Assembly (NCBI GenBank): GCA_030608565.1
Contig: JAUWDY010000016.1
Location: 1-40,036 of the forward strand
Source: Candidatus Bathyarchaeota archaeon
GTDB lineage: Archaea > Thermoproteota > Bathyarchaeia > Bathyarchaeales > Bathyarchaeaceae
Direction: 5' to 3'
DNA: 40,036 nucleotides
Program-made: the position numbers and the translations under genes
Notes under the pieces: model-generated
Seen by the model: the letters and a program-made list of their open reading frames with translations, nothing else
Told to the model about the DNA's origin: nothing
Database searches by the model: none
Part shown: positions 28,089 to 31,292 of the stretch, piece by piece
How the letters are laid out: every line of letters begins with the position of its first letter
How positions within the stretch are numbered: the stretch's first letter is position 1

Positions 28089-28865
28089 CTACTGCCTAAG
28101 GGTTTTACGTGCAAAAGTGATGTAGCCAGTATGCCCTGTCATCAAAGTTTCAGGTCGCGTTTTTCCTTTCATGACTTGCATTCGTCGCATAAGACACTCA
28201 ACGGTTTCAACGGCCACGAATGCGTTTTCTTTCAAAGCTTCAACGGTTTTCACGACTTGGTCGATCGTGGGACTGAAAGAGACAACGGTGCCGCTTCCCT
28301 TCAAAGCTGAGTAAGCGTGGGGGATAACCAGCCATGGAGTTGCTAAGTCGAGAATGACAGCGTCTACGTCCTGCTCATCTATACCCTCTGTAACATCTTT
28401 GTTCTTAAGCTCCACATATTCTGATACGCCAACTCTCTCCAAGTTTTTGGACGCCGTCTCCATGAACTCTTGTCGAACTTCGTAACTGTAGATGCATCCT
28501 TCTGGTTTGACGTAAAATGCGAGAGCAGTGGTAAGCGCTCCGGTTCCAGTGCCCGCTTCCACAATACGGCTGCCTGGTCCGGCTCCGCTGAACATGACAA
28601 TGAGCGCGATGTCTTTTGGATACGTTATCTGCGTCTTTCTCAGCATCTTGAAAACGTAGTCTCGTAAGATGGGTTTTAGGGCCACAAATTCGACGTCCAT
28701 GCTACTTGTTACACAGGTTCCATATTCCTTTCCAATCAACTCGTCCAGTTGAATGAAGCCTTTATGAGTGTGAAAACTTTTCTCCTTCTCCACCATGACT
28801 AGATACGTTCTTTTTCGATCTAGATAGAGCAGAACGCGGTCTCCCTCGCTAATAGTTTGCGACAA
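28089..28865 (-). CDS. trmI: tRNA (adenine-N1)-methyltransferase TrmI
   Basis: This enzyme methylates A58 (and A57 in some archaea) in the T-loop of tRNA using SAM. The 258 aa have the small N-terminal beta domain (GDRVLLYLDRKRTYLVMVEKEKSFHTHKGFIQLDELIGKEYGT) and a Rossmann methyltransferase with motif I RIVEAGTGTGALTTALAFYV. DLATPWLVIPHAYSALKGSGTVVSFSPTIDQV and the closing RPETLMTGHTGYITFARK are typical of TrmI. The start is TTG 28865. It lies 59 nt downstream of the aldolase-Fae gene on the same strand. Confidence 0.94.
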   Translation of the reverse strand: MSQTISEGDRVLLYLDRKRTYLVMVEKEKSFHTHKGFIQLDELIGKEYGTCVTSSMDVEFVALKPILRDYVFKMLRKTQITYPKDIALIVMFSGAGPGSRIVEAGTGTGALTTALAFYVKPEGCIYSYEVRQEFMETASKNLERVGVSEYVELKNKDVTEGIDEQDVDAVILDLATPWLVIPHAYSALKGSGTVVSFSPTIDQVVKTVEALKENAFVAVETVECLMRRMQVMKGKTRPETLMTGHTGYITFARKTLRQ

Positions 28866-28924: not shown

Positions 28925-30403
28925 CTATGGTGTATACTTAAAGGGGTGTTTAGCCCTCTCCTTGTTCTCTATAATTTCTCCAACCGTAGGTCTACCCTCC
29001 ATCGCCCTCCGTATAGCATGCCTCATAGCCTTGTAATTATTAATATAAATTCGTTGACGATCCACAGCAGTCGGATGAACAAAAACGTTGGCAATGATAA
29101 TCAAATTCTCAACCGCCCCTTTAGGTATAATTCCATCCGCCAAGCTGTCTGCCACCGCCTTTGCCACAGCAGCTTGCGCTGGGCCGTAAACCATGCTAGC
29201 CTGTCTCATACTCTTAATTGTAACAGTTGGGACAATGAGCGTTACTGGCTTAACAGTAAGGTTAGGCTCCAGAATAGCGATTAGTGGCTCATGTCCAGGC
29301 GTTGGGGTAGCTTTGGCCTTTGCGTAAGCCTCACCTAGTGGGCCAGTCTTTTTGCCAATCATCAAGTCTATATGTGCAACTTCAGAGTCTTTTCCAGCTA
29401 AGGCCTCACCCACGCGTAGATGAAAGTCTCGGATGATTTTGGGTGTGACCTCGATGGCGGTGAAGCGTTCTTCCAAGATTTTCTCCTCGATTTCAAATTT
29501 GATGGGTTTCGGAGTGATCTTTCCAATCTTTTCTAAGTCGAGACGAAGCTCTTCCCGTGCCTCGTACGTCAACTCTCCTCCGACACTCAACGGCATTCTC
29601 ACTGGACCAACTTTCATTCCCATCATATTTAGCGCCTCTTTTGTTCCCACAGCTCCGCTTCTAGCGATTATTCTTGCGATTTTCTGCACTTTATATTGTA
29701 GTTCGCGAGCCTTCTCCAAGTCGCCTTTCTGAACCGAGTGGTAGACGTCAACCCATACTTCTGGGATAACATTGGCACTTGCCAGTATGGCACCTGAAGC
29801 ACCAGCGGCAAGGGCGGGTAGAACCACTTCATCGTAGCCGCATAAGACGTTGATCTTGTCTCTGACTTTCTCCAAGACCGCGAGAATGAATTTCAACTCT
29901 CCGCTGCTATCTTTTAAGCCAACTATGTTAGGAACTTGCGCAAGATCTTCAACCATCTGCCAACTCAACCAAACTCCAGTGCATTGAGGAATATTGTAGA
30001 GAATAACGGGAAAATCAACCTTGGTTGCAATGGTGTAGAAGTGCTCGTAGATGCCCCGGTCAGTGGGTTTCAGGTAATACGGCGTCACAATCAGCGCTGC
30101 ATCCGCACCAGCGTCCTTAGCGTACCTTGTCATTTTAAGGGCTTGATCGGTTCCACTTGCGCCAGTTCCCGCAACCACAGACACTCTACCGTTAACTTCA
30201 TCCACAACGATGTCAATCAACTTCTTCTTTTCATCTTCTATAAGATTTACGAACTCGCCCGTTGTGCCGCATGGAACAACCCCGCTCACTCCTCTTTCGA
30301 TACAATGGTTGACGAGGTTACGCATTCTTTCCTCATCCAATTTTTTTCCATCTTTAGTGAACGGAGTTACCAAGGCGGGTAAGATTCCTTCTGGCTTGAA
30401 CAT
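28925..30403 (-). CDS. Fusion of a DapA-superfamily aldolase with formaldehyde-activating enzyme (Fae)
   Basis: This 492-aa protein has two domains. Residues 1-295 are a class I pyruvate-type aldolase of the DapA/NAL superfamily: LVTPFTKDGKKLD, CGTTGEF (46-51), TPYYLKP (108-113), YNIP (Tyr136) and Schiff-base Lys164 in GLKDSSG. In true dihydrodipicolinate synthase YNxPxRTG carries an Arg that binds the aspartate-semialdehyde carboxylate; here it is YNIPQCTG, with Cys141, so that substrate is unlikely. Residues about 325-492 are Fae: VGEALAGKDSEVAHIDLMIG with catalytic-type His344, GHEPLIAILEPNL, and MVYGPAQAAVAKAVADSLADG. Fae condenses formaldehyde with tetrahydromethanopterin. The start is ATG 30403 after GGAGAG; the frame is open to 30451. 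The known Fae fusion partner is Hps. Confidence 0.9.
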   Translation of the reverse strand: MFKPEGILPALVTPFTKDGKKLDEERMRNLVNHCIERGVSGVVPCGTTGEFVNLIEDEKKKLIDIVVDEVNGRVSVVAGTGASGTDQALKMTRYAKDAGADAALIVTPYYLKPTDRGIYEHFYTIATKVDFPVILYNIPQCTGVWLSWQMVEDLAQVPNIVGLKDSSGELKFILAVLEKVRDKINVLCGYDEVVLPALAAGASGAILASANVIPEVWVDVYHSVQKGDLEKARELQYKVQKIARIIARSGAVGTKEALNMMGMKVGPVRMPLSVGGELTYEAREELRLDLEKIGKITPKPIKFEIEEKILEERFTAIEVTPKIIRDFHLRVGEALAGKDSEVAHIDLMIGKKTGPLGEAYAKAKATPTPGHEPLIAILEPNLTVKPVTLIVPTVTIKSMRQASMVYGPAQAAVAKAVADSLADGIIPKGAVENLIIIANVFVHPTAVDRQRIYINNYKAMRHAIRRAMEGRPTVGEIIENKERAKHPFKYTP

Positions 30404-30555
30404 ATAAACTCTCCAAACTGTCTTTTCAGACCTTACGTATTGTAACAACACTATATTTCTATATTTCTAGAGTAACATTAAACACCAGTAGGATAAATAA
30501 TATGTAATTACCATAAACTGATGTTCCAGCATATTTTGACGGAGGACTAGTAGCA

Positions 30556-31292
30556 ATGATTGGAGGTTATACTGGAAAAATTCTCAAAGTAAACCTGACG
30601 AAAGGAATAACACAGAGGGAAAAACTGGACGAAAAGATGGCTAGAAAATTTATCGGCGGAAAGGATTAGGAAACACACTTGCCGAAGGCGTAAAGAGAGT
30701 AGCCAAAAAGGCCGGAAGAAGTTCAGAAAGTTTTGCGATGCATGTGAAAGGCTTAGAGTTTCCTGGTTATGATCCTAGAGGCGCCTTCGGGATGGCACTG
30801 GCCTACGCAACATCTGATCGTGGTGCCTGTCACCAGAGAGCATGGACCGTTAGTGCAGAGATTCGAGGGCGTTTGACGCCCAGATACTCAATTAAAGGCA
30901 GAGCCAAGTTCGTGAAGAACGCTCAAGATGAAAGAGCGATGTGTTTCTCTCTCGTTCTCTGTGACTTCATGCCACTGAAAATCAAAGATTTCACAGAGCT
31001 TCTGAACAGTGCAACAGGCTTCAACCTCGCAGAAGACGAATATCTGAGAGCAGGAGAAAGAATCTGGAACTTAACCAGATTGTTCAATGTCCGTGAGGGC
31101 ATAACGAGGAACGATGATACTTTACCACCACGCATTATGGAAGAACCGTTGCCAGACGGTGTGGCAAAGGGACAGATGATAACCAAAGGGATGCTCAACG
31201 ATATGCTTGACGAGTATTACGCTTTAAGAGGATGGAACGAAAACGGTGTTCCAACTCAGGAGAAGTTGAGGGAATTGGACTTAGCATCCTAA
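30556..31292 (+). pseudogene. Aldehyde:ferredoxin oxidoreductase remnant, internally deleted
   Basis: From ATG 30556 the sequence reads MIGGYTGKILKVNLTKG and on to MARKFIGGK, the start of tungsten AOR-family enzymes, then stops (TAG at 30667). One frame over it continues GLGNTLAEGVKRVAKKAG, AMHVKGLEFPGYDPRGAFGMALAYATSDRGACHQRAW and on to a normal-looking C-terminus (GVPTQEKLRELDLAS at 31290). Roughly 350 residues between these parts are missing, including the N-terminal pterin-binding and [4Fe-4S] regions, and one base is lost at the junction. An ORF of 184 codons remains from 30738. It is divergent from the aldolase-Fae gene. Confidence 0.85.

Follow-up and report, generated by a model that had tools for sequence, protein, structure and literature searches.

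What reaction does an archaeon carry out with a DapA-superfamily aldolase fused to a Fae domain? We examined such a gene in the window, as we call the whole 40,036-nucleotide stretch analyzed here, which is contig 23 of a Bathyarchaeota assembly (G000; 1.76 Mb, 98.5% complete, 45 contigs). Residues 4-291 of the predicted protein match Pfam DHDPS (E 1.6e-82) and residues 331-488 match Pfam Fae (E 8.6e-62). Because the latter match spans positions 1-158 of the 159 in the profile, the Fae domain is complete, as the earlier note had read from the sequence. Both halves also exceed the NCBIfam cut-offs (dapA TIGR00674, 254 bits for a cut-off of 206; one_C_fae TIGR03126, 215 bits for a cut-off of 118), and the residues that the note had singled out (Lys164, Tyr136, the motif YNIPQCTG and His344) all occur in the frame under those numbers. 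The host carries a single copy of the gene, together with a Fae-Hps fusion (L002, 488 aa) and one distant DapA relative. The latter adjoins a gene for a sugar kinase resembling KDG kinase, a name given by reading the sequence rather than by a family search. The features discussed below are collected in the table.

Table. Features of the aldolase-Fae locus and of related loci. Positions are those of the window unless a locus handle is given.
Feature	Position	Strand	Basis or remark
DapA-superfamily aldolase / Fae fusion protein	28925..30403	-	492 aa, ATG at 30403, stop ends at 28925, alternative GTG start possible 16 codons upstream; Pfam, NCBIfam and full-length homologues
Class I aldolase domain, residues 1-296	29516..30403	-	Pfam DHDPS, structure match, residue table
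Linker, residues 297-328, mostly low confidence	29420..29515	-	pLDDT <50 at 305-314 and 316-328
Fae domain, residues 329-492	28928..29419	-	Pfam Fae, TIGR03126, alignment with 1y5y
TrmI-type tRNA methyltransferase, frequent downstream neighbor	28089..28865	-	
Aldehyde ferredoxin oxidoreductase gene remnant, divergent from the fusion	30532..31292	+	
Conserved neighbor family, 432 aa	31314..32612	-	near the fusion in 16 contexts
Tandem aldolase-Fae genes, Fae domains differently degenerated	L034 967-3848, L036 4583-7464, L032 4525-7455, L138		

The N-terminal half has the features of a class I pyruvate aldolase of the DapA superfamily: a (beta/alpha)8 barrel, a Schiff-base lysine (Lys164, 29912-29914), the tyrosine of the YNxP motif (Tyr136) and a Thr-Thr pyruvate site. 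Thr47, Thr48, Tyr136, Lys164, Asp191 and Glu192 are kept in all 34 aligned fusions. What is absent is the arginine with which dihydrodipicolinate synthase (DHDPS) binds the carboxylate of aspartate semialdehyde. The position of E. coli Arg138 is occupied by Cys141 (29981-29983), and the replacement pointed out in the earlier note extends to the family, with arginine found there in 0/34 fusions versus 65/80 shorter homologous ORFs; most stand-alone homologs carry YNxPxRT there. Family searches moreover found no Asd in 22 of 24 fusion-bearing genomes (a set that includes G012, whose fusion is fragmented), the nearly complete host among them, whereas each of the 27 tested relatives that lack the fusion has Asd (partial in one). 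No source of aspartate semialdehyde for the aldolase is therefore apparent in the host. An ordinary DHDPS working in lysine biosynthesis, with a Fae domain appended, would account for the TIGR00674 score above the curated cut-off and for the closest solved structures by sequence being annotated as DHDPS, but the loss of the arginine in every fusion and the lack of a detectable Asd in the host make it very improbable and strengthen the doubt first voiced about a lysine role. The fusion shares with DHDPS its fold and its Thr-Thr, Tyr and Lys catalytic residues; it differs in the lost arginine, the appended Fae domain and the missing substrate supply.

The C-terminal half is identified by its sequence as Fae, and His344 (29372-29374) aligns with the catalytic His22 of Methylobacterium extorquens Fae (1y5y). 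The two proteins have the full-length domain and most invariant residues in common; they differ in one loop (GHEP..ILEPN in the fusion, GFTS..IAPN in M. extorquens) and in the attachment to an aldolase. The Fae motifs EVAHID, ILEPN, GPAQ and HPF are preserved in single-copy fusions apart from a few substitutions. MCH, a marker enzyme of tetrahydromethanopterin (H4MPT)-dependent C1 metabolism, is encoded in the host (G000:C24:6168-7103) and in 23/24 fusion-bearing genomes of the class. The parallel that had been drawn with Fae-Hps, in which an archaeal formaldehyde aldolase is attached to Fae (PMC5244752), is borne out in that both proteins join a formaldehyde-linked aldolase to Fae and both occur in the host genome. 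The domain order is reversed, however, with Fae N-terminal in Fae-Hps and C-terminal here, and the aldolase of Fae-Hps is Hps, which acts on a sugar phosphate, whereas that of the fusion belongs to the DHDPS family. A PRK13307 match covers the Fae part of the fusion only, and the Fae halves of the two proteins are about 52% identical.

An AlphaFold2 monomer model of the fusion has a mean pLDDT of 84.8, with most of the aldolase half above 90, the Fae half at about 80, and residues ~305-328 and 484-492 below 50. When the aldolase half is compared by fold, DHDPS (Z 41) and human 4-hydroxy-2-oxoglutarate aldolase (HOGA1, 3s5o; Z 40.6) are tied. DHDPS is expected to assemble into tetramers and Fae into pentamers, so that the two halves would differ in symmetry. 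The interdomain channel for which the earlier note had proposed a structure prediction did not emerge: since this is a monomer model of two confident domains on a loose, low-confidence linker, no fixed tunnel can be claimed.

The architecture is far from unique to this host. A search for DHDPS-plus-Fae proteins, also proposed in the note, recovered the full-length fusion in some 28 further genomes from the phylum at 54-98% identity (73-98% between families of the order and 54-64% in the more divergent copies), and related fusions in more distant lineages. Full-length fusions occur in 20 of the 61 genomes formed by the host and its relatives, one of which (G010) has two tandem copies, while three others (G005, G012 and G020) have fragments only; in an even sample of the phylum, 20/398 genomes gave a strong match, nine of them outside the 61-genome set. 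A named genome collection, searched apart from the near relatives of the window, added Thorarchaeota (three records), a Thermoplasmatota MAG and an Anaerolineae MAG. The viral contigs searched contained no relatives. Strong purifying selection acts on both domains, with dN/dS of ~0.03-0.08 (about 0.05) in aldolase and Fae alike, and chance and misassembly are excluded because many independent assemblies carry the same open two-domain frame at such ratios. In quick trees with SH-aLRT support, all fusions form one clade in the Fae half (98) and in the aldolase half (99), separate from Fae-Hps and from stand-alone DapA. The single clade for each half fits a single fusion event, which would have been followed by one duplication into copies A and B. 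Its wide distribution suggests that the fusion was spread by transfer. Between the same pairs of genomes from different families, the fusion is 76-82% identical versus 68-74% for Fae-Hps. The family is real and conserved, and seems not to have been described in the open-access literature that our search covered, where no paper was found to contain Fae and DHDPS terms together. The main text of an archaeal fusion survey contains Fae/Hps and neither dihydrodipicolinate nor formaldehyde (PMC11237513).

Tandem copies A and B occur in G010, Thermoplasmatota and Thorarchaeota. The Fae domain of copy A is degraded around the catalytic histidine (kept only in G010) and lacks the C-terminal HPF; that of copy B has lost ILEPN and the GP of GPAQ. 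This seemingly complementary decay could be explained by an active site to which two subunits contribute. We rejected it as demonstrating a heteromeric Fae site, which stays a suggestion because avoidance of double losses between the copies was not significant when 36 invariant Fae residues were compared position by position (P 0.25-0.41), and because the copies trace to one duplication. Elsewhere, a second aldolase copy begins at the end of a contig binned as an Anaerolineae MAG (L033 9037-9528).

Across 20 related contexts, the fusion lies in no evident metabolic operon. Its frequent neighbors are the TrmI-type methyltransferase, which probably has no functional link to it, and the 432-aa family. 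Members of the latter from different families of the order are 427-449 aa long and share 75-86% identity with the window copy; the window copy has no match in Pfam or NCBIfam, and its predicted structure (pLDDT 41) is too poor for use. The aldehyde ferredoxin oxidoreductase remnant has an internal deletion of ~350 residues in the window, and within the genus the gene is intact in G001 (L124) and open to the end of the locus in G003 (L004). Genes resembling 2-oxoacid:ferredoxin oxidoreductase subunits, named by reading, lie near the fusion in G050, G053 and G375.

We propose that the fusion is a putative bifunctional formaldehyde-handling aldolase. Lys164 would form a Schiff base with pyruvate, and the N-terminal domain would reversibly make or cleave 4-hydroxy-2-oxobutyrate (HOB), the product of pyruvate and formaldehyde. 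The C-terminal Fae would condense formaldehyde with H4MPT, or release it in the reverse direction, and formaldehyde would be held as methylene-H4MPT with local transfer between the domains. A missing arginine is expected if the acceptor is formaldehyde, which has no carboxylate, and a Schiff-base pyruvate aldolase that lacks the arginine for an acceptor carboxylate and is fused to Fae points to HOB <=> pyruvate + formaldehyde. The intact catalytic residues of both domains, kept under purifying selection, and the single origin of the fusion in both trees favor this assignment, as do MCH in 23/24 fusion-bearing genomes of the class and the precedents of Fae-Hps and of the E. coli pyruvate aldolases described below. 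Against it count the NCBIfam scoring of the aldolase half as DapA and the searches for MCH in G375 and in the fusion-carrying Thermoplasmatota and Anaerolineae genomes, which found none; nor is there an obvious HOB-making or HOB-using operon partner near the fusion in the 20 related contexts. On balance, we consider the HOB assignment about equally likely to be right or wrong.

Within that assignment, the analysis shows the domain architecture, its conservation, the catalytic residues, the lost arginine, the lack of an Asd match and the presence of MCH; HOB as the substrate, the direction of the reaction and the local transfer are plausible but inferred. The strongly downhill condensation of formaldehyde with H4MPT would draw HOB cleavage forward. 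Release and trapping in the host (HOB -> pyruvate + methylene-H4MPT) would be somewhat more likely than synthesis because the hosts are auxotrophic and look heterotrophic, G000 lacking markers for several pathways of amino-acid synthesis. This correlation with lifestyle points weakly to cleavage and has exceptions, since HisD is kept in G196 and G430. Dehydration of four-carbon sugar acids or transamination of homoserine might supply the HOB to be cleaved. Like the fusion, human HOGA1 and E. coli YagE and YjhH are class I pyruvate aldolases in the DapA superfamily, but they have no Fae domain; HOB cleavage is reported for the E. coli set and putative here. A set of E. coli pyruvate aldolases including YagE and YjhH was deleted together so that HOB would no longer be converted into pyruvate and formaldehyde (PMC13279387).

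The same enzyme could instead work in the biosynthetic direction, making HOB from methylene-H4MPT and pyruvate for transamination to homoserine, a natural aspartate-independent route. By family search, homoserine dehydrogenase (HSD) is absent from 24/24 fusion-bearing genomes and present in 24/27 fusion-less ones (24/24 versus 3/27 absent; Fisher p 1.6e-11, phylogeny not corrected for), G237 retains adjoining ThrB and ThrC without Asd or HSD, and Asd is retained where HSD is lacking in G196, G379, G428 and G430. That the fusion replaces HSD was an idea set before the test, and we rejected the split as evidence for it: the control HisD, which is unrelated to C1 chemistry, is absent from 23/24 fusion-bearing and present in 27/27 fusion-less genomes, so the pattern is one of general amino-acid auxotrophy and the homoserine route loses support. 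Both kinds of homoserine kinase also fall below cut-off in 23/24 fusion-bearing genomes, and two further genomes with the fusion, G431 and G432, do have HSD. There remain as exceptions G237, with its ThrB and ThrC, and G196 and G430, which retain HisD and Asd with HSD missing. We regard the route as quite unlikely. More generally, presence of the fusion divides genomes without HisD, Asd and HSD from relatives with them, and both states occur within families f1 and f7. The host also encodes a protein in which a PadR winged-helix domain is joined to a threonine-synthase-like PLP enzyme (L145 7468-8871, G000:C42), and similar long ThrC-like proteins are found in many relatives.

The aldolase might also pair pyruvate with another small aldehyde (e.g., glycolaldehyde, in a KDX-type reaction), leaving Fae to scavenge formaldehyde that arises as a side-product or elsewhere. 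DapA-superfamily aldolases are promiscuous and the model does not favor DHDPS over 4-hydroxy-2-oxoglutarate aldolase as a match; we nevertheless find this unlikely, since a stable fusion with both active sites kept over deep divergence is most simply explained by a shared formaldehyde intermediate. A hydroxymethyl transfer that forms ketopantoate and replaces PanB is formally similar chemistry. It was rejected as hardly credible, PanB being found only on the fusion-bearing side (9/24 versus 0/27), the opposite of what replacement would give.

The HOB-forming or HOB-cleaving reaction would, if true, correct an annotation, in that a protein passing the DapA cut-off belongs to a host without a detectable source of aspartate semialdehyde. 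We put forward more tentatively, at less than even confidence, a natural aldolase dedicated to HOB and coupled to H4MPT, combined in tandem-copy lineages with a Fae site built from two differently decayed subunits. Work on synthetic methylotrophy, in which such a step is sought, describes HOB as a non-native metabolite produced by a promiscuous aldolase (PMC8879981). The step between pyruvate and formaldehyde, of which mostly promiscuous or engineered examples are known, would then have a native version, and these archaea would possess a natural enzyme that joins or splits pyruvate and a C1 unit while a single protein holds the formaldehyde.
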